A stretch of DNA of 22,199 bases, from the IMG/VR virus record IMGVR_UViG_3300038415_000044, positions 1 through 22,199 of that record. One strand, given 5' to 3'. The position numbers and the translations under genes were made by a program. Position 1 is the stretch's first letter, and each line of letters starts with the position of its first letter. This DNA is from a virus. Below, one piece after another: positions 496 through 14,961 of this stretch. The notes below the pieces were generated by a model. That model did no database searches. It was not told the DNA's origin and saw only the letters and a program-made list of their open reading frames with translations.

Positions 496-1043
496 GTCGC
501 GCTCGCTCCTGTCCACTGCACCGCAGTCGTGAGCGTCGCGGACGTCGGGAACAAGAACGAGGAGGAGAACAGGGCACGCTGCAGCATCGTACCGACCGAA
601 GCAGCGTTGAAGATCCCCTCTTCCGCTATCGTCTGCCCCGCTGCCGGAGACGTCGACGGGAAGAAGGCGTCCAGCTCGAAGCCCTTGCCGGAGTTGATCG
701 ACAGCAGCGAGGCGTAGCGGACTCGGTCCTTCTCGGTGACGAGGGTCGTCTGGCCGGCAGCTGGCGCCGTGTTCCCTGTCCCGATGGCCTGATACTGGAA
801 GCCGGCAACTGACTGGCCGGACACCAAGAGAGCCACCTGCACGAGACCGGCGTCGACGGTCTTGTTGACGAACTTACGCCAGCTGAGCAGGGCCCCTTCG
901 CGCTCGAGTCTGCGAAGCAGCTCATCGGTCAGCTGACGGCGTCTCATGACCGAAAGATAATGGTCGAAGGTCGGGACATAGCCAGGAGCCCAGATCATCG
1001 CATAGCCTCGGCCGGTGAACCTAATGCCGTCCAGAACCCTCAA
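492..1043 (-). CDS. Distal tail/baseplate structural protein
   Basis: A virion protein of about 183 residues just downstream of the hub-like gene. The middle carries AIGTGNTAPAAGQTTLVTEK, a pattern (I-G-T-G-x-T-A-P followed by a T-L-x-x-E element) that recurs in distal tail and baseplate proteins of tailed phages, and the rest is β-rich. A GTG at 1058 would give five more residues. I prefer the TTG at 1043 because a TTAAGA box lies at -31 from it, matching the other promoters here. The gene ends in a TTGA overlap with the next one. The exact tail role is inferred from position. Confidence 0.65.
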   Translation of the reverse strand: MRVLDGIRFTGRGYAMIWAPGYVPTFDHYLSVMRRRQLTDELLRRLEREGALLSWRKFVNKTVDAGLVQVALLVSGQSVAGFQYQAIGTGNTAPAAGQTTLVTEKDRVRYASLLSINSGKGFELDAFFPSTSPAAGQTIAEEGIFNAASVGTMLQRALFSSSFLFPTSATLTTAVQWTGASAT

Positions 1044-1068
1044 GTTGGAAGGCGACACGCTCCCACTC

Positions 1069-1074
1069 TCTTAA
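1069..1074 (-). promoter_or_regulatory. TATA-like box for leaderless tail gene
   Basis: TTAAGA on the minus strand begins 31 nt before the TTG at 1043. It overlaps the end of the hub gene, whose TAG stop is at 1077-1079. The spacing equals that of five other boxes in the window. Confidence 0.5.
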
Positions 1075-1076
1075 TC

Positions 1077-2672
1077 CTAAACGAGTTCGACCCCTCCAAT
1101 GTTCAGCGCCGTGGCGCCGAGGGCCTGCTTGTCGGTCTCGAAGTCCAGGGTGACGTCTGTGACCTGGAACTGCTCATTGAGCCCGGCTCCCAGCGAGACG
1201 ACGGTGACGTACTGCCCGGGCTTCGGAAGGACGTCAGGAATGTAGCAGGTCGCGTCGAGGACCCTCTTGACCTTGGCCGAGACTGCCACCTGGGCCGTAA
1301 TCAGGTTGGCCATCGTGGCGCGGTCCCGGATGTTCGTGTCCGTGAACACGCTCTCGCTGAGCTTTCTGACCCCGGAGACGGGGATCGACCCGACTGTGAC
1401 GATGACGGGCGCCGCATAGGTCCGGTAGGTGTAGGTCGCGACGCTCGAGGTAGGGGTCCACGACTTGCCGTCGGCCGACGTGGCTTTCACACCTGCAGAG
1501 TCCGAGCCTTTGAACCACGCGAACGTGTTTGCCGTGACTCCGTTGAGAGCGAAAGCAAGCCAATACTTCTGCCCGATCAGGACCGTCTGGGCTCCGATGT
1601 CGATGATGACCCAGCCACCCCCTGGCGCCGGCGTGGCCTTCGGAATCGAGAATGACTTGAGCAGGCTGCCAGGGACGCCTCCATTGTCGACGAAGACCGC
1701 CCCATTGAGGTCCGCCGTTGGTGTTCCGACGCTCTGCAGGTAGGCCGCGACATAATTCATGGTCCGCTGCGTGGGAGCGAACTGCACGGCGATCCAGGAG
1801 ACGGAGAGCTTGTCGGCTCCTCCCGTGATGGCCTCCGACTTCTGGTCGATGACGTTCGTGTCGGTCCCACCGAGCCCGAAGAGCCTGTTCACGACGTCGT
1901 TGCCGTCGTCCTCGCTCTTGTGCTCCTTGTCGTCGACGATGTATGCGAGCTTGGTCTGGTCGCCCCAGGCTGCACCCGTGGCTGGATCATCTGTGACCAG
2001 GATCCCGGAGTCGAGAGCCGACGGATTGGCGAAGTAGAAGACCTTGTTCTCGTCGACCCACCAGACCCTGCCAGCCTGGGCGGCCAGGTCGTTGAGGATG
2101 TCACTGATCGGCTTGTAGACCGCGACGTAGCTCGGAATGAAGATCCCAGTGCTGTCGATGCTCAGCGTGAAGCCGTCGTCTGCCACGATCGTCGGGCCTC
2201 CGGTCGGATAGGCCGAGGGATCGCTCAGGACCAGGCTGACCAGGTTGCCGATCTCGGTCGACGTGTCGGAAGAATCGGGGGTGATGCCGTCTGCCTGCCT
2301 GGCCTGGAACTTCGCGAAGTTCCCAATGCGCTTCGAGGGCCGCTTGCTCCAGTCGAACCCCTTGACGTCGTAGAGCCTCCTGCCGATCCCGGGGACCCTG
2401 GTCGTCGGGTCCGCCACGAGCCCCGAGAAGTACTTGGTCCAGGCGCCAGCCCCGGCCTTCTGGACCCAGACGTCTATCGGGTCGTCCACCACGATGGAGC
2501 CAAGAAGATCTCCGTCGCTATCCTCGATCACCAGGTTGAACGTCGACGCCACGCCCTCGGCCGACTTGGAGATCGAGAGGCTGTTCAGGTTGAAGTCGAG
2601 CCGGGGCAGCAGCGGGTCGTAGATCAGGGATCCCAGCTGCACTTTCGCATAGAGTGGGGCTTGGACGACCAT
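1077..2672 (-). CDS. Tail hub/tail-associated protein with inserted jelly-roll-like domain
   Basis: A 531-residue protein directly following the tape measure gene, where the distal tail or hub protein normally lies. Residues 1-270 and about 410-531 look like a hub scaffold: the N-terminus has a β-rich element with IDVWVQKAG, and the C-terminus has PDVLPKPGQYVTVVS and EQFQVTDVTLDFETD, the OB/β pattern of baseplate hub proteins. Between them, about residues 290-400, lies a separate module (AVFVDNGGVPGSLLKSFSIP, then GQKYWLAFALNG) with the layout of jelly-roll modules found in surface and carbohydrate-binding proteins. I infer a receptor or glycan-binding insert. The ATG abuts the tape measure stop directly. 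No peptidase motif was recognised. Confidence 0.7.
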   Translation of the reverse strand: MVVQAPLYAKVQLGSLIYDPLLPRLDFNLNSLSISKSAEGVASTFNLVIEDSDGDLLGSIVVDDPIDVWVQKAGAGAWTKYFSGLVADPTTRVPGIGRRLYDVKGFDWSKRPSKRIGNFAKFQARQADGITPDSSDTSTEIGNLVSLVLSDPSAYPTGGPTIVADDGFTLSIDSTGIFIPSYVAVYKPISDILNDLAAQAGRVWWVDENKVFYFANPSALDSGILVTDDPATGAAWGDQTKLAYIVDDKEHKSEDDGNDVVNRLFGLGGTDTNVIDQKSEAITGGADKLSVSWIAVQFAPTQRTMNYVAAYLQSVGTPTADLNGAVFVDNGGVPGSLLKSFSIPKATPAPGGGWVIIDIGAQTVLIGQKYWLAFALNGVTANTFAWFKGSDSAGVKATSADGKSWTPTSSVATYTYRTYAAPVIVTVGSIPVSGVRKLSESVFTDTNIRDRATMANLITAQVAVSAKVKRVLDATCYIPDVLPKPGQYVTVVSLGAGLNEQFQVTDVTLDFETDKQALGATALNIGGVELV

Positions 2673-4286
2673 CTACGAGGTCCTCCGCTGGGTCTCGCGC
2701 TTGAGCCCTTCCATGACGGTGTCGATGAGCTCCTGCTTGGAACCGACGTAGTTCGGGAACGAGAACGAGTAGTGGTTGACGACGGTGCCGCCCGGGGCGC
2801 CTCCGGAGAACCTGCCTCCGGCGATCCCTGGAACGGTCGACGAGAGTCCTTGCAGCGGGACCACAGCCTCGGGCCCATTCTCTCCCACTACCGCGAGCGT
2901 CGGCTGGTCGATGATCCCGCCTTCAGCAAGACCGAGGGCGCTGCCGATGCTGCTGATCGTTCCCGTGACGCTTCCAACGACGTTGCTCACCGTGCTGCTC
3001 GCGTTCGTAAGCGTGTTGAGGCCATCGAGGATCGGCTTCAAAACGCTCCAGATGGTGTCGAAGATCGGCTTGATGAGACCCCAGGCTGCGCTGACGACCG
3101 TGTGGACCCCTCCCCAGAAGTCGTTCCAGGCCGTCGATAGGTCTCCGATGATCGTCTGGAGGACGCTCATGCCTGTTGAGAAGACGAGGGTGACGACCGC
3201 CATCACCGGCTTCACCACTGCCTGGATCCCGGCCCAGAGGGCATCCCACGCGATCTCAAGGGCGTCGATGATTATCTGGGCAGCGTCCCACCAAACCTGA
3301 AAGTAGAGCGAGATCATTGTCCAGACGATCTTCGCGTATTCCTGGATCCCTTGCCACACGAGGTTGATGACGACGCCGAAGGCCTTGACAGCGACCTGGA
3401 TGGCATCGATCACCGGCATGATGTAGGGCTTCAGGAAGTCGACCACCGCCTGGAACTTCTCGCGGATCCCTCCCCAGTCGTTGGTCCAGGCTTCGTAGAG
3501 CAGGGCCGCCACGGCGATGATCGCGAGGATGATCAGGACGACCGGGTTGGCGTCCATCACGGCGTCGAAGGCTGCCTGAGCCGCTGTCATCAGGGTAGTT
3601 CCTGCGACGTAGATCCCCGACATGACTGCGTGGGCTGCTCCGGCGATTGATGACGCGACGCCGATGCCCTGGAGCCCCATGACCAGGTTGAGCACGTTGA
3701 AGGCCACGTTCGGGATCTGGAGAGCGACGCCGACGAGAGCCATCTGGTACTTGCTCTGGGCCGCGCTCGCCGCATCGACAGCCTTGTTGTGCTCGTCGAT
3801 GGCAGACGTGAGCGCCTTCTGGGCACTCAGGGCCTGCGAGGAGTTAGGGCCGTACTTCGCGACGGCGGTGTTGTAGTCCTCCTGTGCTGTCGTGACCTTG
3901 TTCTCGGTAGAGATCACGTTAGCGTTGGCCGTGTTGAGGTTCGTCTGCGCTGACGTGAGAGTGCTGATCATGCTGGTCACTTCGTGTCCAATCGTACTGA
4001 TACTCTGGAACGCCTTCTGCGACTCCGCGAGGGTCGAGTGCCCGATCTTCCAGCTGTTCCAGTTGTCGTTGACGGCAGCGTTCTGCAGCCTGAGCTCGGA
4101 CCGTGTGTCCTTGATCTGGTCGGTGGTGGTCCCGAAGGATGAAGCGACGTCATCGAGCGAGCTCGTCGTCGACGCTGATGAGTTGGACACCTGGTCAAGG
4201 GAGTTGGCGACGTCGCCAAAGTTCGAAGCTGCCTCCTCGACGCCGTCCGTCGTGACCTTGTAGTCGATCGGTACCTCGGCGCTCAT
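2673..4286 (-). CDS. Tape measure protein
   Basis: The 537-residue product sets tail length and is threaded inside the tail tube. The N-terminal 170 residues are helical and rich in Ser, Thr, Ala, Asn and Gln (coiled-coil-like). A strongly hydrophobic centre follows, including PVVLIILAIIAVAALLYEAW near residue 250. After it come repeated Trp-containing helical segments (WDALWAGIQAVVKPVM, WNDFWGGVHTVVSAAWGLIK), and then a Gly-rich C-terminus with GENGPEAVVPL, a motif common at tape measure C-termini. The position after the tail chaperones and before the hub is canonical. It is short for the family; at about 0.15 nm per residue a tail of roughly 80 nm is expected. ATG start just after the preceding TAG. 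Confidence 0.9.
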   Translation of the reverse strand: MSAEVPIDYKVTTDGVEEAASNFGDVANSLDQVSNSSASTTSSLDDVASSFGTTTDQIKDTRSELRLQNAAVNDNWNSWKIGHSTLAESQKAFQSISTIGHEVTSMISTLTSAQTNLNTANANVISTENKVTTAQEDYNTAVAKYGPNSSQALSAQKALTSAIDEHNKAVDAASAAQSKYQMALVGVALQIPNVAFNVLNLVMGLQGIGVASSIAGAAHAVMSGIYVAGTTLMTAAQAAFDAVMDANPVVLIILAIIAVAALLYEAWTNDWGGIREKFQAVVDFLKPYIMPVIDAIQVAVKAFGVVINLVWQGIQEYAKIVWTMISLYFQVWWDAAQIIIDALEIAWDALWAGIQAVVKPVMAVVTLVFSTGMSVLQTIIGDLSTAWNDFWGGVHTVVSAAWGLIKPIFDTIWSVLKPILDGLNTLTNASSTVSNVVGSVTGTISSIGSALGLAEGGIIDQPTLAVVGENGPEAVVPLQGLSSTVPGIAGGRFSGGAPGGTVVNHYSFSFPNYVGSKQELIDTVMEGLKRETQRRTS

Positions 4287-4287
4287 C

Positions 4288-4644
4288 CTAAGGAGCCCCT
4301 ACCAGGTCGGCGAAAGCGTCGTCCGTCTTCCCCTCGATCTCGTCCAGGATCGCGTCGACTGCCGGCTGCATGAACGGCTGGGCTCTCATCCTCGAAGTTC
4401 CCAGTTCGACGTAGGAGGCGTAGCCGGCCATCGCCCGGAAGTGCCACTCGCCCTCTCCCATGGCTACCCAGTCAATCGAACGCTGCAGGTACCCGGTGTC
4501 GACGGGGACGATCGCCTTGGCGTAGTCGACCATGTCCTGCAAACACGCCTCGATCGACCGCTCGGTGATGGGCTTGACCGAGTCTGCGGCCTTCCTGGTG
4601 AACGCCCTGGCCGCGTCGAGGCCCTCGACCGTCATGCTAACCAT
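4288..4644 (-). CDS. HK97 gp10-like tail/neck component
   Basis: A 118-residue protein with the features of the HK97-gp10-like family: an N-terminal helix, DYAKAIVPVDTGYLQRSI (the V-D-T-G-x-L-x-x-S element), then YASYVELGTSRMRAQPFMQP, where Y-x-x-Y-V-E-L-G-T and P-F-x-x-P-A are the family hallmarks. These proteins take part in head-tail or tail completion. In most phages the gene sits with the connectors before the tail tube; here it lies between the tail chaperones and the tape measure. The ATG at 4644 overlaps the frameshifted chaperone stop within ATGGTTAG; a second in-frame ATG lies at 4635. Confidence 0.8.
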   Translation of the reverse strand: MVSMTVEGLDAARAFTRKAADSVKPITERSIEACLQDMVDYAKAIVPVDTGYLQRSIDWVAMGEGEWHFRAMAGYASYVELGTSRMRAQPFMQPAVDAILDEIEGKTDDAFADLVGAP

Positions 4645-4876
4645 TGTAGAACTCCGCCGTATTCTGGTCCTGCTTGCTCTTTATCGCCTGGGCCTTGTCG
4701 ATGGCCATCCAGGTGGAGATGAGCTTCGGGCGCAGCCGCGTCGCCTCCTCCGGCCCTATGTGATAGTCGATGGCGAGCTTCCGGAGCAGAAGCGCCTCGT
4801 GCTGGAACGGAGTGAGCCCGCTCAGGTTGTCGAAGAAGACGAAGCGGTTGAGGGCTCGGACTTCGGCCTTGGTCGT
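4637..4876 (-). CDS. Tail assembly chaperone, T portion (made by -1 frameshift)
   Basis: This 79-residue reading frame has no initiation codon of its own near its beginning. It becomes readable when ribosomes slip back one base on T TTT TTA at the end of the upstream chaperone frame, base 4876 being read twice. The translation starts TTKAEVRALNRF and contains DYHIGPEEATRLRPKLIS before ending at TAG; codon choice is clearly coding (strong G/C third positions). In lambda and many other phages the G and GT chaperones are made this way and help the tape measure recruit tail tube subunits. The fusion would be about 178 residues from the CTG start or 189 from the GTG start. Confidence 0.85.
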   Translation of the reverse strand, partial: TTKAEVRALNRFVFFDNLSGLTPFQHEALLLRKLAIDYHIGPEEATRLRPKLISTWMAIDKAQAIKSKQDQNTAEFYNG

Positions 4877-5205
4877 AAAAAAAGCGTGTTGTACTGCTGG
4901 ACGATCTGGTTGACGACGGATGCCTTGCCGTTGGCCAGGTCTTCCGGCGTGAGCTTCGGGCTGACCAGGGCTGCGCTGACGAGCTTGTAGGTGAGCTTCT
5001 TCTTGTCGGTCTCCTTCTCGTCTGCCGTGTCGAGCAGCTCGCTGTGCCCAACGTCCCGAAAGACGCAGGCGAGCTTTTCTCCCGTGGACGGGTCCTCGAC
5101 CGTGAACGGGTACTCTTTCTTGGCCAGGAACGCCCTGGCAGCTGCTACCTGCGGATCTATGTCAGCGCTCAGGTGATGCTCACCGCTGTCGCGCCGAAGC
5201 CCCAC
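4822..5205 (-). CDS. Tail assembly chaperone, G-type protein
   Basis: The zero-frame product of the tail assembly chaperone locus, placed between tail tube and tape measure genes as in most siphoviruses. Up to the slip site it reads as a compact domain (AARAFLAKKEYPFTVEDP, then KLTYKLVSAALVSPKL). After the slip site the frame continues for only a short low-complexity tail ending in SSSSTT. A GTG at 5205 would overlap the tail tube gene by 37 bases. A CTG at 5172 is an attractive alternative: it forms CTGA with the tail tube stop and has GGTGAG upstream as a possible Shine-Dalgarno site. That choice gives 116 residues. Confidence 0.85.
   Translation of the reverse strand: MGLRRDSGEHHLSADIDPQVAAARAFLAKKEYPFTVEDPSTGEKLACVFRDVGHSELLDTADEKETDKKKLTYKLVSAALVSPKLTPEDLANGKASVVNQIVQQYNTLFLRPRPKSEPSTASSSSTT
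4876..4882 (-). promoter_or_regulatory. -1 ribosomal frameshift slippery heptamer
   Basis: The minus strand reads CTTTTTTTACG. In the zero frame this is CTT TTT TTA, giving the heptamer T TTT TTA, a canonical X XXY YYZ slippery site of the sequence used in HIV-1 gag-pol. Slippage joins the G-type frame to the T-type frame. I did not identify a convincing downstream pseudoknot by eye. Confidence 0.85.
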
Positions 5206-6062
5206 TTCTCGGGGATGCCTTCCTTCGCGTCTGCGTCGACGGACCTGTCAGTCAGGTCGATCGCGTAGGCGCCGGTGAACGTGATCGTGCAGGTCGTGGC
5301 CTTCAGCACCCAGGCCAGGGTCCGGGACGTGTTAGCTTTCGCGTCGGTCTCGAGGGTCGTTGAGACGTACTCGACGGTGATGTCGCCCTTGATGTCACGC
5401 TGGAACGAAGTGCCGCTGAACGCCATCTTCTTCGATCCAAGAATCCATTTGTCGCCTGTCTCCCTGGTGATGGTTACGTTGATCTCCTCGCAGGGTATTC
5501 CTGATGCGTTCCACGACACAGGGCTCGCGCCTCCGTCGGCCATCGACCAGAGAGCGGTCGTGTCCGGTGTTGCGTGAGTTCCCGATCCGATGTAGTCGGT
5601 GACTGAAGGCGTCGAGATGTTGTCGTGCGTAAGCGTGACGGTGACATTGAGCGAGGGCTTCGAAGCCGCGCCGGAGATCTTGATGCTCTTGATCCTCGAG
5701 CGCGTCATCGTGATGAAGTTCGTGGTCCCGTTGAGCTTGAAGGAGAACCCGATGCTCAGGGCCTTGTCGATCGACCCGGCTCCGCCTCCGACCGCACTGA
5801 TCCCGTACTTGATGAAGGTCGAGTTCGTGATGCCGAACTCGAGGGTCGACTCGAAGACCTGGCGTCCGAAGACGAACTTGTAGGGATCCTCAGAGCCGTG
5901 GCGCCTGTAGATGTCCTTGTCCTGCGTGAGCTTCGGGGTCCACTTGGCCACATTGGCCAGAAACACCATCGTCGGATTGGTCGGGAACGTGCCTTCCGTC
6001 GTCTCTTCGACATACTCGAGCTGGTTGACGATCTGGCTCGCATGCGTCATCACGGAGCTCAA
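5169..6062 (-). CDS. Major tail tube protein
   Basis: A 297-residue β-rich protein immediately upstream of the tail chaperones, the normal place of the tail tube subunit. The opening (SQIVNQLEYVEETTEGTFPT) matches tube proteins of siphoviruses, in which an E-x-T-x-G-x-x-P element near the start is frequent. The rest alternates β strands with Thr/Ser-rich loops, and the C-terminus (EGIPEKWGFGATAVSIT) is typical of the fold. It starts at TTG 6062, overlapping the previous stop as TTGA; an in-frame ATG lies four codons later. TATCTG lies at about -31, a poor TATA match. Expected to polymerise as hexameric rings around the tape measure. Confidence 0.78.
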   Translation of the reverse strand: MSSVMTHASQIVNQLEYVEETTEGTFPTNPTMVFLANVAKWTPKLTQDKDIYRRHGSEDPYKFVFGRQVFESTLEFGITNSTFIKYGISAVGGGAGSIDKALSIGFSFKLNGTTNFITMTRSRIKSIKISGAASKPSLNVTVTLTHDNISTPSVTDYIGSGTHATPDTTALWSMADGGASPVSWNASGIPCEEINVTITRETGDKWILGSKKMAFSGTSFQRDIKGDITVEYVSTTLETDAKANTSRTLAWVLKATTCTITFTGAYAIDLTDRSVDADAKEGIPEKWGFGATAVSIT

Positions 6063-6310
6063 GCGCTAACGCCTCCCGTGGTCGCGACAGATACTTTCAC
6101 AGACACAGTCGTGGTCTCCTGCCGCCACGCGCCGCAGAGAGCGCAGTGCCAGTTGTTGATCTGGGCGCCTGCCGTCGACGCCTCTGTGAACTCCATGGCG
6201 GGGATGCCCTTGCAGCCCTCGCTCGCATGTTCAAACTCAAATGCGCTTTCGTCCTTCTCGGACTTCTTGACCGTGAGCTTCTCGCCCGACGAAAGAAAAC
6301 CGCGGCGCTC
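6059..6310 (-). CDS. Small Cys-containing protein without a recognisable start codon
   Basis: The frame between tandem TAA TAA (6311-6316) and the TGA at 6059 encodes up to 83 residues and looks genuinely coding: EKLTVKKSEKDESAFEFE, then a Cys at residue 33, NNWHCALCGAWRQ with Cys-x2-Cys next to a His, and a Thr/Val-rich end. The Cys/His group suggests one small zinc site. No ATG, GTG, TTG or CTG exists in this frame before an internal ATG at about residue 39, which would remove half of it. An 18-bp promoter-like repeat lies directly upstream. The start could be non-canonical, reached by recoding, or lost through a sequence error. It ends in TTGA coupling to the tail tube gene. Confidence 0.6.
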   Translation of the reverse strand, partial: ERRGFLSSGEKLTVKKSEKDESAFEFEHASEGCKGIPAMEFTEASTAGAQINNWHCALCGAWRQETTTVSVKVSVATTGGVSA

Positions 6311-6325
6311 TTATTAGCCTGAGAA
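6308..6325 (-). repeat. 18-bp repeat, copy A, with TATA-like core
   Basis: TTCTCAGGCTAATAAGAG on the minus strand, identical to the copy at 11889-11906. In that copy the TAATAA core lies at -31 from an ATG. Here the position 31 nt downstream of the core (6285) holds no start codon. Confidence 0.6.
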
Positions 6326-6384
6326 CGTGCCGGGGTTAATAACGGCCAGCTGAGCAGCCAGGCCTTCCGGCGACCGTCGATTGT

Positions 6385-6404
6385 TAACAAAACGGACTTT
6401 GTTA
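6385..6404. promoter_or_regulatory. Inverted repeat, possible operator
   Basis: TAACAAA and TTTGTTA form a perfect 7-bp inverted repeat with a 6-base spacer on the minus strand. It lies in the 144-bp space (6311-6454) between the membrane protein gene and the tail genes, about 60 bp upstream of repeat copy A. An A+T-rich dyad in a G+C-rich genome suits a regulator site better than a strong terminator. The same space also holds a short in-frame stretch ending NPGTFSG before TAA TAA. Confidence 0.4.
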
Positions 6405-6454
6405 TGCTGGTCTTACGAGCGCTTGTGGGAAAAAGGGAGGATCCTCAGTCTCAG

Positions 6455-7087
6455 CTACGGGGTAGCTGGGGCTGGGGTCGGAACCGGTCCGAGCTTCGCG
6501 TCGATCACTTGCAGGGCTGCGGCCGCGAACGGCTGATCGGTCGCTGGGAGCTTCTGGATCTCTCCCTGGATGTACGGCTTGACGTCGGCCCAGGTCTTGC
6601 TCACCAGCGCAGATGAGACGGTGCCCGTGTCGACGAAAGCGATGATGTCTGAGACCGCGTCACCGGCGAGAACGCCAACACCTGTGACGAGGGCCTGCTC
6701 GGCCGGAGGGAATGCTTGGACATTTGCGACCAGGTAGCCTATGAACGCTCCAACCGCCCACAGGACCTTATCGAGGATGTTCTTCTGTCTGAGCGAGATA
6801 GTCATGTTCGATTTCCGAGACGGCGCTGCGCTCTTTAACGTCCCCGGCCCTGTGGCCAGGTCGAAATCGCGCAAGGAGTCCCAGGTGAGAAGGACCCCGG
6901 CGCCGAGGATCCCGACGAGCCCCGTGATGATCTCCGACGTCCTCTCGCCGACCAGGTTGAAGTAGATCGTGACGACGGAGAACCGCATCTCGAGCAGGAT
7001 GCGGTCGAACGCATACCCCAGCACGACCGAGAAGAGCAGGATCCTGGCGAAGAGCCTGATCTGGGCCTTCCTGGTCTCGTCCATCAC
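6455..7087 (-). CDS. Membrane protein in the connector-tail interval
   Basis: A 210-residue protein with about four hydrophobic segments: near residues 12-30 (LFARILLFSVVLGYAF), 52-68 (EIITGLVGILGAGVLLTW), 102-120 (ILDKVLWAVGAFIGYLVANV) and 130-150 (LVTGVGVLAGDAVSDIIAFV). The C-terminus is soluble and ends in a Pro/Ala tail. A membrane protein among head-tail genes could be a holin-like or superinfection-exclusion protein, but no family is recognised. The start is GTG at 7087 overlapping the previous stop as GTGA, with ATG next. An internal ATG at 6805, preceded by TTAAAG, could yield a 116-residue form with only the last two segments. Confidence 0.7.
   Translation of the reverse strand: MMDETRKAQIRLFARILLFSVVLGYAFDRILLEMRFSVVTIYFNLVGERTSEIITGLVGILGAGVLLTWDSLRDFDLATGPGTLKSAAPSRKSNMTISLRQKNILDKVLWAVGAFIGYLVANVQAFPPAEQALVTGVGVLAGDAVSDIIAFVDTGTVSSALVSKTWADVKPYIQGEIQKLPATDQPFAAAALQVIDAKLGPVPTPAPATP
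6833..6838 (-). promoter_or_regulatory. Possible internal TATA-like box
   Basis: TTAAAG inside the membrane protein gene starts 33 nt before the in-frame ATG at 6805. The spacing differs by two bases from the -31 seen elsewhere, so this is a weaker call. Confidence 0.3.
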
Positions 7088-7596: not shown

Positions 7597-7599
7597 GGC

Positions 7600-7749
7600 C
7601 TACGCCTTCCGCTTCTCGCGCTGGTTGCCCTCGTGGAGAGCAGCGATCCTGCAGTCGGCTGAACAGAACTGCCTCTTGTCGTTCAGGCTCGCGACCTCGA
7701 AGGCCTTGCCGCAGCCGGAGTAGTGGCATCTCCTCGAGTAGGTTGCCAT
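7600..7749 (-). CDS. 49-residue zinc-finger microprotein
   Basis: A short gene of 49 residues, ATG to TAG, fitting tightly between the connector gene (stop at 7752) and the completion protein (start at 7596). The protein reads MATYSRRCHYSGCGKAFEV, then RQFCSADCRIAAL and a basic tail (EGNQREKRKA). The C-x4-C plus F-C-S-x2-C-R pattern is a treble-clef or FCS-like zinc finger, which usually binds nucleic acid or a protein partner. Its place in the head-tail cluster is unusual; it may bind DNA at the portal or regulate late genes, but this is speculation. Codon use matches the neighbours. Confidence 0.8.
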   Translation of the reverse strand: MATYSRRCHYSGCGKAFEVASLNDKRQFCSADCRIAALHEGNQREKRKA

Positions 7750-7751
7750 GC

Positions 7752-8153: not shown

Positions 8154-9070
8154 GGAGAAACCGAAGCCTCCTTCTCGTCTTTAACGCTCTTCTTGGCATA
8201 GGGCCACGGGATCACTCCTGCGGCGTAGAGCAAACCCGTCACCATGCCCTTGGTCCTGTCGGACCATTGGACGATCTCCTGCTCGGAACCGCTCGCGATC
8301 TGCGCCAGCATCAGCAGCAGCCCCATGTCGAACTCGTTGCCGGAGGCCGCGCTGCGCTTGATGCTTTCAAGGTCCGCAGCCAGGGCCTCCGGGTCGACAA
8401 AGACGGCCTCGCAGTCGGAGCCCTCGAAGTACTTCGACGTCGACCAGGTCCCCTCGTTGCCGATGAACTGCAGCATGCGGTAGAGCGAGCGGCGATGGAG
8501 CCATGCCTTCGACCGCAGGGAAGGATCGTTGACGATGCTGACGCCATGGACCTGGTAGAATGGAGGGCTCGCATTCTGGGTGATGACGCCAAGGGGCGAC
8601 CTGATGGTCCAGTGGTTTGGCTCGTAGTGGAGGCCTGGCGTCCACCTCACGAGCCTGTTCTGCGGGAACTTCCTGCCAAACCTCAGGTCCTCGACGTCGA
8701 TGCTGGCGTAATCTGCCGCCCAGCTGGAGAGCACAACTCGGAGAACTGCTTCGCTGTCAAGGACCTCGTCGTCGTCGATGATCAGCAACCAGTCGTCGCT
8801 CGTGGGCTTGAGAGTCGCGGCCAGCTGCAAGGCCTGGGTCCGGGCCGTCTTCTGCAGCAGATGCCCGTGCCTGGTGTACATGGTCGGGAACGGAAGGCCT
8901 GTCGCACACTCGCCTGGGGAGCTTGGGCTGTCGCCTCCAAGGCGAGGCCATCCGGCGTAAGGTCCCTCGTGGATGACCGCCCCGTCGACGTGGCCTCTGA
9001 GGCTCTCGAGCGTGCGCTTGAGCGACTCGGGGCTGCCGTATGTGTTGATGCACGCGAAGATCTTGGTCAT
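8150..9070 (-). CDS. Family 2-like glycosyltransferase
   Basis: A 306-residue protein with a GT-A nucleotide-sugar fold. The N-terminus MTKIFACINTYGSPESLKRT matches the first strand and loop of family 2 enzymes, and SDDWLLIIDDDEVLDSE near residue 95 contains the D-x-D metal and nucleotide-binding motif. The remainder has many aromatic residues expected in an acceptor-binding region. It probably transfers a sugar to a protein or glycan, with no membrane anchor visible. The start forms an ATGA overlap with the upstream glycosyltransferase gene. Together the two form an insert between capsid and connector genes; likely roles are virion glycosylation or changes to the host surface, which is inference. 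Confidence 0.82.
   Translation of the reverse strand: MTKIFACINTYGSPESLKRTLESLRGHVDGAVIHEGPYAGWPRLGGDSPSSPGECATGLPFPTMYTRHGHLLQKTARTQALQLAATLKPTSDDWLLIIDDDEVLDSEAVLRVVLSSWAADYASIDVEDLRFGRKFPQNRLVRWTPGLHYEPNHWTIRSPLGVITQNASPPFYQVHGVSIVNDPSLRSKAWLHRRSLYRMLQFIGNEGTWSTSKYFEGSDCEAVFVDPEALAADLESIKRSAASGNEFDMGLLLMLAQIASGSEQEIVQWSDRTKGMVTGLLYAAGVIPWPYAKKSVKDEKEASVSP
8179..8184 (-). promoter_or_regulatory. TATA-like box for leaderless connector gene
   Basis: TTAAAG (in GTTAAAGACG) starts 31 nt before the GTG at 8153 and lies within the last codons of the glycosyltransferase gene. The same 10-mer precedes the protease-scaffold gene. Confidence 0.6.
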
Positions 9071-9867
9071 TCCAGCAGTCCCTTGTAGATCTGGTCGAGC
9101 TGCTTGACGACGTTCTCGATGCGGTGCCGCTCTGGGAATCCTTCGAGCGTCTCCTTCGTGGGCCAGTAGTAGACCTGCTTGCCGAGCATGAGGCTCTCGA
9201 GGTCCGTCAGCGACAGAACCTTTTCGGGCGTGGCCGAGTAGTCGACCTCGGGCTTCCAGGAGATCTCTCTCTCGAAGCCCGACAGGAACGACGGCATCTC
9301 AAAGTAGGGCATCGGGTCCTGCCAGCGGATCCAGACCGTCACGCCCGGGATGGCTGCCTTGACTTCGTCGACGAAGGGCAAGGTCCGGACGTAGTCGCAG
9401 GGGAAGAGGTCCCCGTGGCCAGCGTATTCGGTGCGCCTGAACAGGCGTTCGTCGATCGGGTTGGGAAGCCAGCTCGAGCCAGGGATCAGCTTCTGCAGGT
9501 CAGGCGTAGAGACGAGGGCGACGTCTGCGAGCCTGGCCAGGCGCTGGGCGGTGGCAGGATCCTCCTCGCGCAGGTTCTGGCCGTGGTGATGAAGAACGAT
9601 CTTCGCATAGGGGTGGCTCTCCCTGATCCTGGGGAGCAGCCAGTCGAGGGCATGGACATGGATGATGCCGAAGTCAGGAACGAGCCTGATAGCCTCTTTG
9701 ACCATGACGTCCCTGTTCGTGCAGCAGCGGATGATCCCGTCCTCGCCAGCGCGGAAGGGATCCAGATTGCGATCAGCCATCAGAACGGCAGAGCCGGGAT
9801 ACTCGCGAGCAAGAATGGCGGCGACACGTCCTGCGTTCCAGATGTGAAGGACCTTTGGGGGATCCAA
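9067..9867 (-). CDS. Family 4/1-like glycosyltransferase
   Basis: A 266-residue protein, short for a GT-B enzyme. The N-terminal half resembles GT4/GT1 proteins: KVLHIWNAGRVAAILAREYP, then IIHVHALDWLLPRIRESHPY, KIVLHHHGQNLREED and VALVSTPDLQKLIPGSSWLP, then NPIDERLF, the N-P-I/V-D element found in such enzymes. The C-terminal half carries EKVLSLTDLESLMLGKQVYY, similar to the E-x7-E region of the donor site. The TTG start at 9867 has TTATAG at -31, suggesting a leaderless mRNA starting a two-gene glycosylation unit. The neighbour is a GT2-like enzyme. The sugar and acceptor cannot be read from the sequence. Confidence 0.8.
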   Translation of the reverse strand: MDPPKVLHIWNAGRVAAILAREYPGSAVLMADRNLDPFRAGEDGIIRCCTNRDVMVKEAIRLVPDFGIIHVHALDWLLPRIRESHPYAKIVLHHHGQNLREEDPATAQRLARLADVALVSTPDLQKLIPGSSWLPNPIDERLFRRTEYAGHGDLFPCDYVRTLPFVDEVKAAIPGVTVWIRWQDPMPYFEMPSFLSGFEREISWKPEVDYSATPEKVLSLTDLESLMLGKQVYYWPTKETLEGFPERHRIENVVKQLDQIYKGLLE

Positions 9868-9892: not shown

Positions 9893-9898
9893 CTATAA
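9893..9898 (-). promoter_or_regulatory. TATA-like box for glycosyltransferase pair
   Basis: TTATAG starts 31 nt before the TTG at 9867. It lies in the 96-bp space after the capsid gene and just downstream of the hairpin terminator, so the pair has its own promoter. Confidence 0.65.
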
Positions 9899-9963: not shown

Positions 9964-10983
9964 TTACGCGTAGGTCGTTGTGATGGTCCGCATGCCGCCC
10001 TGGTTGATGATGCTTGCCAGGGTCCATTGCCTGATGACGTAGCCGTCCGCGCCCCTGATCTCGTCGCGGTACTGTGCCGCTTCGGTGGGCCCTGCTGCGA
10101 GCACTACCGCTCCGGAGGACTTTGACATGACCGTCGCCATTGTGGCTGTCAAGTCTGGGTCTGTGACCACCATCAGGTCTGGGTAGCCGACTGCCGCGAG
10201 GTTCGGGCTTACGTTGCTGAGAGCCCCTGCGTCCTGGTTGAAGTATCTCACGTAGGTGTTGGCGCGAAGTGCCGCGAAGACCTTCGGGTGAAGTCCTATC
10301 ACGTCTGGCTTGAAGCCGTTCTGCCAGATGAGGTCGTAGACCCCTTCGAGGTCCAGCAGCGGGTTGTAGTGGCTGAAGTCGCCGTTCGTGTTCATGGTGT
10401 TCCACGCGCCTCCTGAGTAGGAGCTCGTGGCGACGGTTGTGCCTCCTTCGATGATGGCCTGGAGCTGGGCGTTCTCCGCCTTCACGAGGGCTCTGGCTGC
10501 GTTGTCGACGTGAAGCCTGAAGACGTCGTGGACCGCCTGCTTCTCGGACTCGTCCGAGAGCAGTATGTGGGCGACGTTCTTCCCTGCGGCTGCAAGGTCG
10601 AATGTGGTCCTCGCGTAGGTCTGCTTGAGGACTTGTGCCTCCTCGAGAGGCAAGATCCTCGTGGATGCGCTGTACTTGGTGGCCAGGTCTACGCTGAGTA
10701 CGAGCTGCGGGCTGTTGACGATCTGGCACATCTCCCGGAGCCTGTAGTCACGGAAGGTAGTGCCGAGGACCTGATCGAGCACGACCACCGCCTTGATGGT
10801 CGAGCTGTCTGGAGTATCGAAGATGCCTCCGCTGAGAGAGGCTTCTGCGGCCCTGAGGAACCTGCCCTCGACTTCCTTGAGCCCCTTCTTGGCGACATAG
10901 TCTGAGTTGGGCGCGTTGCCGACGGCGCCTCTGTAGAAGGTCCCGTCATCAGGGTTGAACCAGGCGAGATGCTTGCTGTCCAT
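9964..10983 (-). CDS. Major capsid protein, HK97-fold
   Basis: A 339-residue protein after the protease-scaffold and decoration genes, the standard place for the capsid subunit. The N-terminal region includes LKEVEGRFLRAAEASLSGG and FRDYRLREMCQIVNSPQLVL, a helix and E-loop region. The middle (VFRLHVDNAARALVKAENAQ) is the spine-helix type segment. The C-terminal part contains KPDVIGLHPKVFAALRANTY, then YPDLMVVTDPDL and the P-domain/A-domain strands ending with INQGGMRTITTTYA, a pattern shared by HK97-fold capsid proteins of archaeal and bacterial tailed viruses. ATG start two bases after the previous TAG. A hairpin terminator follows. Confidence 0.85.
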   Translation of the reverse strand: MDSKHLAWFNPDDGTFYRGAVGNAPNSDYVAKKGLKEVEGRFLRAAEASLSGGIFDTPDSSTIKAVVVLDQVLGTTFRDYRLREMCQIVNSPQLVLSVDLATKYSASTRILPLEEAQVLKQTYARTTFDLAAAGKNVAHILLSDESEKQAVHDVFRLHVDNAARALVKAENAQLQAIIEGGTTVATSSYSGGAWNTMNTNGDFSHYNPLLDLEGVYDLIWQNGFKPDVIGLHPKVFAALRANTYVRYFNQDAGALSNVSPNLAAVGYPDLMVVTDPDLTATMATVMSKSSGAVVLAAGPTEAAQYRDEIRGADGYVIRQWTLASIINQGGMRTITTTYA

Positions 10984-10985: not shown

Positions 10986-11426
10986 CTAAGCACTGATCCC
11001 TGCTCGGTATCCGAGCAAAATCCTACCGTAGCTTGCCTTGGTGATGGCCTCGTAGGCCGTCCCCACGATGAGGCTGAGCTGCAAGGCGTCAGACTGGACG
11101 TAGTTGCTGGAGAAGTCCGTGGCCCTCGCCTTCTGGATCTTTGTCTTGGTCGTGGTTCCCGGCTTCACGAGCCAGCCGAGCGAAATGTTGCCGACGTTGT
11201 CCTCTGCGAGTTCGACGATCCCTTCGATGAGGCACCTGCCAGTCCCAGACTTCGCGATGGCTTCAACGGCCACCACGTACGGGCCCTGATCCGTCGCGTT
11301 TTGGGCGTCGCGGACTTTGCCAGCTCTGACGACGCAGAGGTCGCCCTTTACGATGGCGCTGGTGCCATCCTCGGTGAGCTGGATGTACCGGGCGCCGATC
11401 TCAGAGTCGACGTCTCCAACTGCCAC
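10986..11426 (-). CDS. Capsid decoration/stabilisation protein (DUF2190-like)
   Basis: A 146-residue β-rich protein between scaffold and major capsid genes, where head decoration proteins lie. It contains TSAIVKGDLCVVRAGKV, GPYVVAVEAIAKSGTGRC and LIEGIVELAEDNVG, a small β-barrel pattern like DUF2190 capsid-cement proteins in which alternating K-G-D and G-x-V-x-V-A-x-E segments are typical. The GTG start at 11426 shares its first base with the final base of the scaffold TAG stop (TAGTG), so translation is probably coupled. The last codons contain a perfect short hairpin just ahead of the capsid gene. Confidence 0.7.
   Translation of the reverse strand: MAVGDVDSEIGARYIQLTEDGTSAIVKGDLCVVRAGKVRDAQNATDQGPYVVAVEAIAKSGTGRCLIEGIVELAEDNVGNISLGWLVKPGTTTKTKIQKARATDFSSNYVQSDALQLSLIVGTAYEAITKASYGRILLGYRAGISA
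11002..11016 (-). promoter_or_regulatory. Short perfect hairpin upstream of capsid start
   Basis: GCTCGG-ATA-CCGAGC on the minus strand forms a 6-bp stem with a 3-base loop, ending 18 bases before the capsid ATG. It lies within codons of the decoration gene, so it may be chance, an RNA-processing site or a translation control element. Confidence 0.3.
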
Positions 11427-11866
11427 TACTGATTGCCTCCCTTGGTTGGGCCGAACATGCTTTCGCGCAATGCGTCCACCGCCGTGGCTTCCGTCCCGCT
11501 GCCTGCCGCTGCGGAGTACGCGACGCTGGCCGACCTGGGTCTTACCGATCCGGTCGGGTTGGCGTCGATCAGCTTCTGGTAGGTCGTGGCCAGCGCGTTG
11601 AGCGTGTCCGCGCTGAAGCCCTTCATGGCCTCCAGTTCTTTCTGTGCGTCCGCCGCCTTGGCGAGACCGCACGCGACCTTGAGCTCGACGACGCGCTTGA
11701 CAGATGCGAGCCTGTCGGCAGCCTCTCGCGTTGCTTTCTCGTCTTCGAGCGTCTTGACCTTTCCGCTCAGGGCGTCGACCTCGGCGCACTTCGCAGTCAT
11801 CTTCGTCGACTGCTCCGCGACCGTGGCCTTGAGCTGGTCAAACTCTTTCTGCTCGTTGGCGTCCAT
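11426..11866 (-). CDS. Nested scaffold protein (internal start)
   Basis: Same frame and stop as the protease-scaffold fusion, but starting at the internal ATG at 11866 to give 146 residues (MDANEQKEFDQLKATVAEQS and onwards). A TAATAA core within the 18-bp repeat lies at -31 from this ATG, and GGAG lies just upstream. This is the arrangement of lambda C/Nu3, in which the scaffold is also made alone from inside the protease gene. The heptad-rich part covers roughly the first 60 residues. Support is positional and by analogy; no expression evidence exists here. Confidence 0.55.
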   Translation of the reverse strand: MDANEQKEFDQLKATVAEQSTKMTAKCAEVDALSGKVKTLEDEKATREAADRLASVKRVVELKVACGLAKAADAQKELEAMKGFSADTLNALATTYQKLIDANPTGSVRPRSASVAYSAAAGSGTEATAVDALRESMFGPTKGGNQ

Positions 11867-12802
11867 TCGAGTCTCCGTGCCCGTCTGACTCTTATTAGCC
11901 TGAGAAGCCTCGAGGTACTTGCCCCAGGCGTAGGCGTAGAGTGGATCCTCCTTCATCTTCTTGCCGATGAGGGTGGCGGCCTCTCCCATGGTCTTGGCCA
12001 GCCCGAGCGACACCATCGTCGCGGCGCTGCGGTTCTTGATGGCTGCGCAGACCTTCTTCGCGGTGTCCTCGTCCCCGTACTGCTTCATCATCTTGGTCAT
12101 GCACTCGTCCCAGGGGAACGAGCCAGGACCACCCGCCGGCGCGGCGAACATCATCTCGAGCTCGGCGCTGAACGCCTGTATATCCAGATCAGTGGCCAAT
12201 GTCAGGACCGAAGCCGGGTTTGGCTCTTTAACTATCGAAGCGACCGCCGCAGAGAAGTTGCAGGTCCTGACGTCTGGTGAGACGCAGGTCCCCCTGACGC
12301 TGGCTGCTCCTCCGAAAGCAGGGTTGTCGACAAAGGCGACGTGCCTGCCGATGAACGACTCGACCATCTCTCCGCCGTTAGGCAGATGCTGGATGTTCGA
12401 CGTGTCGACGCGAATCTGCGGGCTGACCCACTTCCAGGAACCGCTCTTGATCCCGGCCCAGGCCTCATCGCTGGAGATCTTGGCGATCCCCCAGCCGATT
12501 CCGTTGCTGACACCGACGTCGATGATCGTCCCGACCTGGTGGGCGTCCTCGTAGGCGGAGAGCTCGCCGAGCGGGAGCGACTCGCCGGTCCTCGGGTCGA
12601 CGCCGTGCTGCATCGGGTCTCCAGGCGGCCCGATGACCGGCTTTCCGATGAACGACTTGAGCCCGGCGAGCAGGGCGTCGTCGGTGACGCCCCACTTGTT
12701 CTTGCTGAGGACGTCGGCGTCCAGGATGAAGATCTTGACGTAGCGGATCCCGTCCTTCTCATAGGGCTCGAGGGCGCTGCCGTATCTGAGGACGTACTGC
12801 AA
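11426..12802 (-). CDS. Prohead protease-scaffold fusion protein
   Basis: A 458-residue protein upstream of the decoration and capsid genes. Residues 1-165 look like a prohead maturation protease: GIRYVKIFILDADVLS, YEDAHQVGTIIDVGVSNGIG and SGSWKWVSPQIRVDTSNIQH, then ESFIGRHVAFVDNPAFGG. The middle carries WDECMTKMMKQYGDEDTAKK followed by VCAAIKNRS, the cysteine-pair helix often found in phage head proteases and portal-associated proteins. The C-terminal third (KTLEDEKATREAADRLASVK) is a charged coiled coil typical of scaffold. The TTG start at 12802 has TTAAAG at -31. I did not fix the catalytic triad. An internal ATG at 11866 could yield the scaffold alone. Confidence 0.78.
   Translation of the reverse strand: MQYVLRYGSALEPYEKDGIRYVKIFILDADVLSKNKWGVTDDALLAGLKSFIGKPVIGPPGDPMQHGVDPRTGESLPLGELSAYEDAHQVGTIIDVGVSNGIGWGIAKISSDEAWAGIKSGSWKWVSPQIRVDTSNIQHLPNGGEMVESFIGRHVAFVDNPAFGGAASVRGTCVSPDVRTCNFSAAVASIVKEPNPASVLTLATDLDIQAFSAELEMMFAAPAGGPGSFPWDECMTKMMKQYGDEDTAKKVCAAIKNRSAATMVSLGLAKTMGEAATLIGKKMKEDPLYAYAWGKYLEASQANKSQTGTETRMDANEQKEFDQLKATVAEQSTKMTAKCAEVDALSGKVKTLEDEKATREAADRLASVKRVVELKVACGLAKAADAQKELEAMKGFSADTLNALATTYQKLIDANPTGSVRPRSASVAYSAAAGSGTEATAVDALRESMFGPTKGGNQ
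11889..11906 (-). promoter_or_regulatory. 18-bp repeat, copy B: internal promoter for scaffold
   Basis: TTCTCAGGCTAATAAGAG, identical to the copy at 6308-6325. The TAATAA core begins 31 nt before the scaffold ATG at 11866, the standard spacing here. Confidence 0.55.
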
Positions 12803-12827
12803 CGAAGCTGCTTCTGGCTTTGAGCGT

Positions 12828-12833
12828 CTTTAA
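12828..12833 (-). promoter_or_regulatory. TATA-like box for leaderless protease-scaffold gene
   Basis: TTAAAG (in GTTAAAGACG) starts 31 nt before the TTG at 12802, four bases after the stop of the membrane microprotein gene. It fits a leaderless mRNA. Confidence 0.65.
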
Positions 12834-12836
12834 CCC

Positions 12837-12920
12837 TCAGACGAAGATTCGGAGGGCGATTGCCGTCCCCACGAGCAGGGCCAGGATCAGCAGGACCGCG
12901 AGCGCCCTCTTCCACTTCAA
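12837..12920 (-). CDS. 27-residue membrane microprotein
   Basis: A 27-residue gene with TTG at 12920 overlapping the YkgJ-type gene stop as TTGA and ending at TGA just before the protease promoter. The product is MKWKRALAVLLILALLVGTA followed by IALRIFV: basic at the N-terminus and then one uninterrupted hydrophobic helix, a typical single-pass membrane microprotein. Alternatives are an uncleaved signal anchor or a chance frame, but the overlap at its start and its exact fit in the gap favour a real gene. A role in lysis, secretion or membrane attachment of head assembly is possible and untested. Confidence 0.65.
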   Translation of the reverse strand: MKWKRALAVLLILALLVGTAIALRIFV

Positions 12921-13348
12921 ACCGCTTTCGCCAGCTCCTCGATCGTCTTCATGCCATAGGCGACCTCTTTAGCCAGCTCCTCGAGGTACGGCCCCATGTC
13001 CTTCACGGTCTTGCCCAGGTACAGGCCAGGGCACTCCTTGGGCGCCTCCTCGAGGTACCCGACGTCTCCCTGCGGGGTGTAGTGGAACGGGTAGAGCCTG
13101 CAAGGGTGAGGCCTGGACCCGTAGACGGCGCACTTCTTGTCGCTCCTGAGGAACGTGCAGGGAGCGAAAGGCTCCTTCTGGTTGAGCTCGCGGAGGATCG
13201 ACGCGCCCTCGTGGGTGCACTCGGCCTCGAAGTCCTTGATCTGGGAAGGCGCCATCGCGGCGAGCCTGTCGACGTCCCGGGGCAGCAGGGCGAGCACCCT
13301 CGGGTGGCAGCACTTGCCGCAGCCGGGCCTGCACTCGAAGAGCATCAA
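12917..13348 (-). CDS. YkgJ-type CxxCxxCC metal-binding protein
   Basis: Contains FECRPGCGKCCHPRVLALLP at the N-terminus, then CTFLRSDKKCAVYGSRPHPC and RLYPFHY, the Cys-cluster layout of the YkgJ family (putative zinc or iron-sulfur binding). Later it carries KECPGLYLGK and a helical C-terminus. Function in this family is not well known. TTG at 13348 (or ATG at 13345) starts right before the Cys cluster. The same frame continues upstream with coding-like codons for some 30 more residues (AKIAAYARYRTD, then PVTKEGQ) but without ATG, GTG or TTG; a CTG at 13453 or 13459 would include it. The gene follows the portal gene and is coupled by TTGA to the membrane microprotein. Confidence 0.8.
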   Translation of the reverse strand: MMLFECRPGCGKCCHPRVLALLPRDVDRLAAMAPSQIKDFEAECTHEGASILRELNQKEPFAPCTFLRSDKKCAVYGSRPHPCRLYPFHYTPQGDVGYLEEAPKECPGLYLGKTVKDMGPYLEELAKEVAYGMKTIEELAKAV

Positions 13349-13442
13349 CTGGCCTTCCTTGGTGACCGGGATCTGGACGGTCAGGCCTGCGTCTGTCCTG
13401 TACCTGGCGTAGGCCGCGATCTTCGCAGACGCGACCCTGTGG

Positions 13443-14930
13443 TTAGGTAGCAGCTGCAGGGTTGGTCCCTTCTGTCGGGGCTGTGGGCGACGGGGCTGTC
13501 GTCGGCTCCGGTTGCTGGACTTCTGGCATGCCAGACTGCGGTCCCGTGGGCGGCGGTCCGATGATCATCTCGAGCGCTATCGGGTTCCACGCGTGCTCGA
13601 TGTAGACTTCAGGCTCCTGGTCCTCGGCGAGGGCTGCGGGAAGACCGACGCTCTTGGCGTTCTCTTCGACCATCAGCCAGGCCTTGACCAGCGGAGCGTA
13701 CCAGCGGAGCTCGAGCTGCCTTCCGTGCTGGGTCTGGATGTCGGTGATGGGTCCGTTGATGAACATCAGCGCTTGGATCTCGGCGGTGGCCCTGTTGACG
13801 TTGTGCTCCCTGTTCAGCAGGAAGCGCGGGACCTGGAAGTTGCCGATGAGCTCGTTGTCGAGGTTCTCCTTGGCCGCGATCAGCTTCTCGAGGTCCGGGC
13901 TGATGTCGACCTTCTGGAACTCGACCTTCCTGTTGACGCCGATGAACTTGCCCGGCGCCAGGGTGGCGTTGTCGAGGATGCTCTGGATCGTCACCGTGGC
14001 AGCTGCCGAGCTCTGCCTCTCGGTGTCGATCCGCAGGATCCCGGCAGGAGCCCACAGCGACTTCGCGACCTCCTGGATCGCCTCCTGAAGCAGGAACCTC
14101 CTCGCCTGCAGCGGCCAGCCGATCGGCTCGATCTCGCTCAGGCCAACATGCTCGTTGAGGATCTCGTTGTGCGTGAAGTGGAGGACGTTCTCGGGCGGCA
14201 GGATGTTCTTGTCGTTGTTGATGCTGATGTCCGCGCGGATGCCGTAATAGAGCCAGTGGTCGATCTCCCCGGTGTCGCGGTTCATGCGGGGCCACATGGC
14301 CCAGGGCTCGAGCTCGATCAATTTCAGGACGACGCCGTTGTCATCCTTGAGAATGAAGAACGACGCGAGGCCGCTGATCTGGGTGAAGATGATCGCCTGC
14401 CGCATGACGGCGTCTATGTTCACCTTGCGGTTCATCCCATCGATGTAGTCCTTGAGAGGGCCGTACTTCGCTCCAGGATCGGCGTAGACAGGCTTCTTGG
14501 TCTGGGGGTCGATGGCGCCCGTCTTGTGGGCACTCGGGTTGACCCACTTGACGACGGTCTCGGCTCCCTCTTTCGTGCCCCACTCTGCCTTGATCTGGAT
14601 CGACTGCCTCACGATGCTGTCTCGCTTGAACTCCCGGAACCATTTATCCATCGCGTCGTAGGCGATGGACCTTGCGAACGTGACGTCGCCGCCACCGTAT
14701 TGTAAGCGGAACTGCCAGCCCGTGCCCCTGCTGACCGTGGTCCCCGGGGCCCTGGCGCGTCTGAATTGCTTGTCGTCGATCGGAGCGTAACCTGCGGTCC
14801 TGCGGATGGCGTTGAAGTCAGCGGCGACCGAGTCGTCGTAGGACTTCTCGGCTTCAAGTCCCTTCGCGAATTCGCTCGCGTCCTTGGACGTCGCCGCGAC
14901 CGCCTTGTCAGCGTCCGTCTTCTTGGCCAA
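13443..14930 (-). CDS. Portal protein
   Basis: A 495-residue protein downstream of the terminase genes. Recognisable portal features are DKWFREFKRDSIVRQSIQIK near residue 100 (early helix), VLHFTHNEILNEHVGLSEIE (the wing/stem region with the H-x-x-x-N/E-x-x-G-x-S element), WPLQARRFLLQEAIQEVAKS, then LAPGKFIGVN and a long helix with NRATAEIQALMFINGPIT. The Pro/Thr/Ala-rich tail (about the last 35 residues) is low complexity. It forms the dodecameric DNA entry ring. TTG start at 14930 with CTAAAG at -31, indicating a leaderless mRNA. It lies between a short CTG-start gene and the YkgJ-type gene. Confidence 0.85.
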   Translation of the reverse strand: MAKKTDADKAVAATSKDASEFAKGLEAEKSYDDSVAADFNAIRRTAGYAPIDDKQFRRARAPGTTVSRGTGWQFRLQYGGGDVTFARSIAYDAMDKWFREFKRDSIVRQSIQIKAEWGTKEGAETVVKWVNPSAHKTGAIDPQTKKPVYADPGAKYGPLKDYIDGMNRKVNIDAVMRQAIIFTQISGLASFFILKDDNGVVLKLIELEPWAMWPRMNRDTGEIDHWLYYGIRADISINNDKNILPPENVLHFTHNEILNEHVGLSEIEPIGWPLQARRFLLQEAIQEVAKSLWAPAGILRIDTERQSSAAATVTIQSILDNATLAPGKFIGVNRKVEFQKVDISPDLEKLIAAKENLDNELIGNFQVPRFLLNREHNVNRATAEIQALMFINGPITDIQTQHGRQLELRWYAPLVKAWLMVEENAKSVGLPAALAEDQEPEVYIEHAWNPIALEMIIGPPPTGPQSGMPEVQQPEPTTAPSPTAPTEGTNPAAAT

Positions 14931-14955
14931 CGGGCTCAGCAGCCCCCGTGTCGGT

Positions 14956-14961
14956 CTTTAG
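14956..14961 (-). promoter_or_regulatory. TATA-like box for leaderless portal gene
   Basis: CTAAAG (in GCTAAAGACCG) starts 31 nt before the TTG at 14930. It lies in the 37-bp space after the small CTG-start gene. Confidence 0.6.

Follow-up and report, generated by a model that had tools for sequence, protein, structure and literature searches.

In archaea, the core promoter (BRE/TATA) consists of an A/T-rich element whose centre lies about 26 nt upstream of the point where transcription starts and which TBP and TFB recognize. In phage lambda, the scaffold of the C/Nu3 locus lies in frame within the protease gene, and Nu3 is made from an internal translation start. In Haloferax volcanii, BRE/TATA core promoters have been associated with leaderless mRNAs, and GTG starts occur on them (PMC4983044). 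In SIRV2 and other crenarchaeal viruses, early genes, which include anti-defence genes, are preceded by conserved regulatory sequences formed by TTTAWATA plus a BRE (PMC11065993). In herpes simplex virus UL26/UL26.5, the coding region of the protease contains the promoter of the scaffold (PMC2949831). Taken singly, nested scaffolds, repeated promoters in viruses and leaderless mRNAs in archaea are already known; late transcription of tailed archaeal viruses is barely described. A search of the open-access literature returned nothing relevant on their late promoters, and the paper on Nvie-Pro1, the provirus of Nitrososphaera viennensis (FR725450), makes no mention of promoters (PMC6563490).

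The window analysed here is the whole IMG/VR record IMGVR_UViG_3300038415_000044 (22,199 bases), which encodes a head-tail morphogenesis module on its minus strand (Table 1; several genes have predicted start codons). Positions 2604-9684 are confirmed by L019 and L020, two contigs of different sample origin that are >99.96% identical to the window there. The module is homologous to that of Nitrososphaeria head-tail viruses: TerL, the major tail protein, tape measure, baseplate, a gp10-like protein and post-baseplate/tail-fibre proteins all have homologues in Nvie-Pro1, which is also the single match of the baseplate protein among 50,697 phage records (FR725450.1; 94% covered, 25.7% identity, 2e-27). 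The archaeal link, which an earlier note on this DNA had drawn from promoter layout, is now backed by homology. These matches make an archaeal host of the Nitrososphaeria lineage likely and, judging from sequence, the virus probably infects ammonia-oxidiser-type (Nitrososphaeria, thaumarchaeal) archaea. Affiliation with bacterial phages was discarded because TerL matched these far less strongly than it matched Nvie-Pro1. Nothing in the phage collection matched the capsid protein, the portal and TerL proteins retrieved no close relatives, and a capsid match, L005, was dropped as a relative because its gene content is that of an unrelated phage. No host genome was linked by scanning 84,980 genomes with the capsid profile and with the exact sequence of a tRNA-arm-like stretch, and AmoC as a host marker gave no signal, control genomes being likewise silent. 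That stretch (20400-20440, plus strand; GTGGGTTCGAATCCTACCCCCTCG) resembles a tRNA T-arm plus the 3' side of the acceptor and is possibly an attachment site; ARAGORN and Rfam found no tRNA there, and no integrase was seen. Elsewhere in the window, the HerA/DUF87 ATPase shares 41% identity over its N-terminal half with one of the Manatee Spring virus Caudoviricetes sp. MW202482, and the interval between portal and protease genes encodes a small cysteine-rich protein (12917-13348, minus strand; CxxxCC, YkgJ-like by eye) with a counterpart at 4801-5238 of the closest relative, L006.

Table 1. Genes and promoter-like elements of the window and of related viruses; distances run from the first base of the element to the first base of the start codon.
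Genome	Feature	Position	Strand	Remark
Window	HerA/DUF87-type ATPase gene	20535-21992	-	
Window	TerL	15485-16855	-	best match Nvie-Pro1 (Nitrososphaera viennensis provirus)
Window	late promoter-like box CTAAAGAC (CTAAAG 14961)	14954..14961	-	-31 from portal TTG 14930
Window	portal protein gene, TTG start	13443-14930	-	Pfam PF04860 1.7e-11; phrog_12
Window	late promoter-like box TTAAAGAC (TTAAAG 12833)	12826..12833	-	-31 from protease-scaffold TTG 12802
Window	head maturation protease fused in frame to C-terminal scaffold-like region, TTG start	11426-12802	-	
Window	additional TTAAAGAG 12231	12224..12231	-	32 nt before in-frame TTG 12199, inside protease gene
Window	internal element TTCTCAGGCTAATAAGAG with TAATAA 11897-11892	11889..11906	-	-31 from nested ATG 11866
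Window	putative nested scaffold-like product, 146 aa	11426..11866	-	charged C-terminal part of protease gene
Window	major capsid protein	9964-10983	-	
Window	box TTATAG 9898	9893..9898	-	-31 from TTG 9867 of glycosyltransferase-like gene
Window	late promoter-like box TTAAAGAC (TTAAAG 8184)	8177..8184	-	-31 from GTG 8153
Window	TTAAAGAG 6838	6831..6838	-	-33 from in-frame ATG 6805, within membrane-protein gene 6455-7087
Window	second copy of TTCTCAGGCTAATAAGAG, box TAATAA 6316 (TAATAAGAG)	6308..6325	-	before Zn-ribbon ORF
Window	major tail protein	5169-6062	-	
Window	tape measure	2673-4286	-	
Window	baseplate-like protein	1077-2672	-	Nvie-Pro1 match (FR725450.1)
Window	box TTAAGA 1074	1069..1074	-	-31 from TTG 1043; 3 nt after baseplate stop
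L006	TTAAAGAAA before protease gene	6199		syntenic with window 12826..12833
L006	TTAAAGAAA inside protease gene, before scaffold part			syntenic with window 11889..11906
L006	TTAAAGAAA before first glycosyltransferase-like gene	9499		syntenic with window TTATAG 9893..9898
L006	TTAAAGAAA after second glycosyltransferase-like gene	12578		syntenic with window 8177..8184
L006	TTAAAGAAA before Zn-ribbon gene	13873		syntenic with window 6308..6325
L006	TTAAAGAAA, 3 nt after baseplate stop	19128		syntenic with window 1069..1074
Window	nested element TAATAAG			ATG at 31
L006	nested element TTAAAGAAA			ATG at 38
Nvie-Pro1 (L017)	nested element TAGTTCTCTT, before internal ATG 7439			ATG at 37
L004	nested element TACTTCTC			ATG at 37
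L008, L009, L012, L023, L025, L027	nested element TA[GC]TTC...			ATG at 40

On the minus strand of the window, six boxes lie with their first base exactly 31 nt before the first base of a start codon, and the positions that the earlier note had assigned to them were all verified, together with two extra boxes, TATATC at -28 from GTG 17623 and TTAAAGAG 6838 at -33. Three of the boxes share YTAAAGAC, as had been noticed, and the YTAAAGAC-to-TG pattern occurs exactly three times, always on the minus strand. Boxes 6316 and 12231 were absent from the earlier list. The former lies in one of the two copies (6308-6325 and 11889-11906) of an 18-base exact direct repeat, the longest of the window; the latter is a possible minor promoter candidate, and no counterpart was seen at the syntenic place in L006. 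The box at 8177..8184 overlaps the 3' end of the upstream gene (8150-9070). Two glycosyltransferase-like genes (8150-9867, minus strand), a label given by sequence pattern alone as neither has a Pfam match at E 0.01, sit inside the late module and are retained in L006.

A set of A/T-rich hexamers selected by eye in a G+C-rich genome might have arisen by chance, all the more when different hexamers had been pooled and the starts of two of them chosen by the earlier reader. Nevertheless, the top two 7-mers in an unguided enrichment scan of the window coding strand were GTTAAAG (5 vs 0.09 expected) and TTAAAGA (4 vs 0.07). The excess anticipated around -31 was also found in a distance-to-start scan, in which hexamers with at least 5 of 6 A/T peaked at -30/-31/-32 (4, 5 and 5 vs 0.32 expected; max-over-offset P about 0.0005 with 29 gene starts), a test that is not fully blind because starts 1043 and 11866 were among those picked beforehand. 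An ORF of at least 50 codons starts exactly 31 nt downstream of all three YTAAAGAC boxes, compared with 1.7% of random positions (chance 0.0166). Together with the synteny described below, the enrichment and positional tests refute chance for the YTAAAGA set and leave it extremely improbable as a general explanation. The box set is not due to chance, although TTATAG 9898 taken alone could still be, even with a syntenic counterpart.

L006, the closest relative (49% identity in the capsid by tblastn and 38% in the baseplate), carries TTAAAGAAA seven times on its coding strand and never on the opposite one (0.2 expected), and six of these copies are syntenic with window boxes (Table 1). The distance to the start is -33, -38, -48 or -49 (two other starts are ambiguous), so that the exact -31 spacing fails as a rule of the lineage: the promoter places are conserved between both viruses, the spacing is not, and -31 is peculiar to the window virus. 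The spacings of -48 and -49 come with a Shine-Dalgarno-like GAGGAG leader. These leaders of variable length behind a retained element speak against reading the boxes as late promoters, and so does the strong box 6316, near whose -31 position no canonical start (ATG, GTG or TTG), nor CTG, is present. The Zn-ribbon ORF behind this box (both within 6195-6325, minus strand) is homologous to L006 13921-14070, and its sequence is the same in L019 and L020. The GAGGAG leaders would also suit real promoters whose transcripts carry short leaders of 5-20 nt instead of being leaderless, as would the few bases by which archaeal start sites shift and the nested ATGs at 37-40 in relatives. We hold such leaders to be rather unlikely, given the tight 34-36 spacing and the Shine-Dalgarno depletion observed at promoter-linked starts in more distant kin. 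Two further peculiarities of L006 are a glycosyltransferase orthologue with an in-frame TGA (HVW*NAG) near its N-terminus (about 9575-9620), which represents a sequencing error, a pseudogene or read-through, and a long N-terminal extension of the protease gene (6234-6800) that is missing from the window and has an ambiguous start codon.

Like the window, Nvie-Pro1 shows a repeated element before its late genes, along with the homologous tail and TerL proteins, but the element is a different one and its protease is fused to the capsid protein. TAGTTCT occurs 12 times forward and never in reverse (0.36 expected under the same model as for L006), and TAGTTCTC lies at -34 to -38, mostly 34-36 nt before annotated starts. 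TAGTTCT is also present in L004 and in the relatives L007-L012. In agreement with this, six contigs later retrieved by capsid sequence alone all carry it on the coding strand, and in every one of them one copy or more lies 34-37 nt ahead of the start of an ORF; L023, L027 and L028 have it at this distance ahead of both portal and protease genes, and L025 and L026 mainly before other genes, so that the pattern recurs in these contigs with differing completeness. Across 11 viruses (Nvie-Pro1 and ten other contigs), 33 of 52 forward TAGTTCTC sites are found 33-37 nt upstream of the start of an ORF of at least 50 codons, compared with 6.0% of positions taken at random and, on the reverse strand, 1 of 15 sites. 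In larger records TAGTTCTC is almost confined to the structural module. The elements precede portal, protease, scaffold, tail and post-baseplate genes; those of the portal gene are found in Nvie-Pro1 and marine relatives too, and TAGTTCTC at L017 17327 and L004 18449 is syntenic with the post-baseplate box of the window. Starts linked to the element are depleted of Shine-Dalgarno sequences: an anti-SD 4-mer, the measure that separated the classes in the relatives (duplex energy was uninformative), precedes 3 of 46 of them vs 15 of 23 other starts (p = 4e-7). In the window the corresponding counts, 1 of 6 vs 12 of 24, do not differ significantly. Neither element was present in the stretches examined of the more distant L013, L015 and L022.

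On the capsid tree, a fully supported branch has the TAGTTCT viruses on one of its sides, and the window groups with L006 (98/90) apart from them. This indicates that the element was changed in place between the clades. The claim that the boxes are promoter-like elements, several of them within an otherwise coupled late gene series, at positions that fit leaderless mRNAs, stands and is extended by their retained places in relatives; the term TATA box is merely descriptive, as most relatives carry the non-TATA-like TAGTTCTC at the same position. Because TAGTTCTC has this character, a promoter-overlapping binding site for a regulator of viral or host origin, with the true TATA/BRE weak or elsewhere, is a serious option, even if an unlikely one. 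Sister clades that share the place and spacing of the element yet differ in its sequence would suit it, archaeal viral regulators with motifs overlapping the BRE are known (PMC5569661), and none of 17 virus records yielded a TBP or TFB gene, which means that host factors would be needed to read the element. On the other hand, the interval between motif and start showed no second consistent element, and the window boxes are A/T-rich at the position expected for a TATA box. A signal acting at the RNA level or in termination, with the motif as the U-rich tail of an upstream transcript and the next gene behind it by coincidence, appears improbable. In its favour, several Nvie-Pro1 copies of TAGTTCT supply, with their TAG, the stop codon of the gene before them, and the element is often succeeded by T-rich tracts. 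Yet the spacing is tied to the downstream start and not to the upstream stop, conserved copies occur within the protease gene with an in-frame ATG behind them, and GTTAAAGA is not U-rich.

Such promoter-like copies within the protease gene, each ahead of an in-frame ATG at the end of the protease part, are found in 10 viruses and with both motif types (Table 1), although they are not ten independent observations because the marine-type copies are mutually related. The region downstream is the capsid protein in Nvie-Pro1 and scaffold-like in the other nine; alignments and the in-frame ATG place such a 3' part in the protease genes of the window, L006, L004 and the marine relatives. The protease gene of the window, which matches phrog_976 weakly (E 0.0018), has homologues in L006 and L004. 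It is proposed that the C-terminal part would act as a scaffold and that the nested 146-aa product would be made from the internal promoter, so that the scaffold, or the capsid protein in Nvie-Pro1, could be produced in excess of the protease. This arrangement resembles that of UL26/UL26.5, where the scaffold is likewise an in-frame C-terminal part of the protease gene and has its promoter inside the protease coding region; it differs in concerning archaeal tailed viruses, in an internal promoter that is only predicted and in the capsid protein itself being the downstream part in Nvie-Pro1. The likeness is one of arrangement, with no claim that the promoters share an ancestor. Lambda C/Nu3 also has its scaffold in frame inside the protease gene, but there Nu3 comes from an internal translation start, in contrast to the internal promoter predicted here.

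We consider it likely that the boxes are late core promoters giving rise to leaderless mRNAs in a head-tail virus of the Nitrososphaeria lineage. Each box would sit at the BRE/TATA position of a transcript whose first base coincides with or adjoins the start codon, no Shine-Dalgarno sequence would be involved in translating the promoter-proximal genes from their TTG, GTG or ATG, leaderless translation from TTG being plausible, and the genes lying between promoters would be read by coupled translation. One promoter per functional block (portal, protease, scaffold, tail genes and post-baseplate gene) might allow the dose of each to be set separately. The analysis demonstrates motif enrichment, strand bias, fixed spacing, syntenic conservation and the Shine-Dalgarno depletion in relatives; we infer promoter activity, the transcription start, leaderlessness, late timing, this dose logic and the host. 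Like the promoters of Haloferax volcanii, the boxes are A/T-rich and lie about 31 nt before the start codon, and the genes behind them would do without a Shine-Dalgarno sequence; unlike there, the window repeats a narrow, near-identical YTAAAGA, TTG is frequent and the relatives carry a non-TATA-like sequence there. As in SIRV2, one virus repeats a consensus element, here a putative promoter, before a gene class that would be co-regulated, but the elements of the window precede structural genes rather than early ones.

More tentatively, Nitrososphaeria tailed viruses might possess a dedicated late-transcription code, namely a lineage-specific core element (TAGTTCTC or GTTAAAGA) swapped between sister clades at fixed promoter positions and recognized through a specificity that the virus directs, by a factor of its own or by one particular TFB of the host. 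A conserved, herpesvirus-like promoter for scaffold or capsid protein inside the protease gene would form part of it. Within the open-access literature searched, the predicted late promoter map of this lineage, the in-place swap of the element between clades and the putative promoter internal to the protease gene are new. A promoter map kept across highly diverged viruses while its element is replaced would offer a testable handle on how host RNA polymerase is directed, and the internal promoter would carry a herpesvirus-like gene arrangement over to archaeal tailed viruses. The motif can also help to place uncultivated viruses in the lineage and to correct gene starts. For example, the annotation of Nvie-Pro1 gene 16 is probably 39 nt too long (L017 10808-10847), since the element, which is followed 35 nt later by ATG 10847, overlaps the start as annotated.
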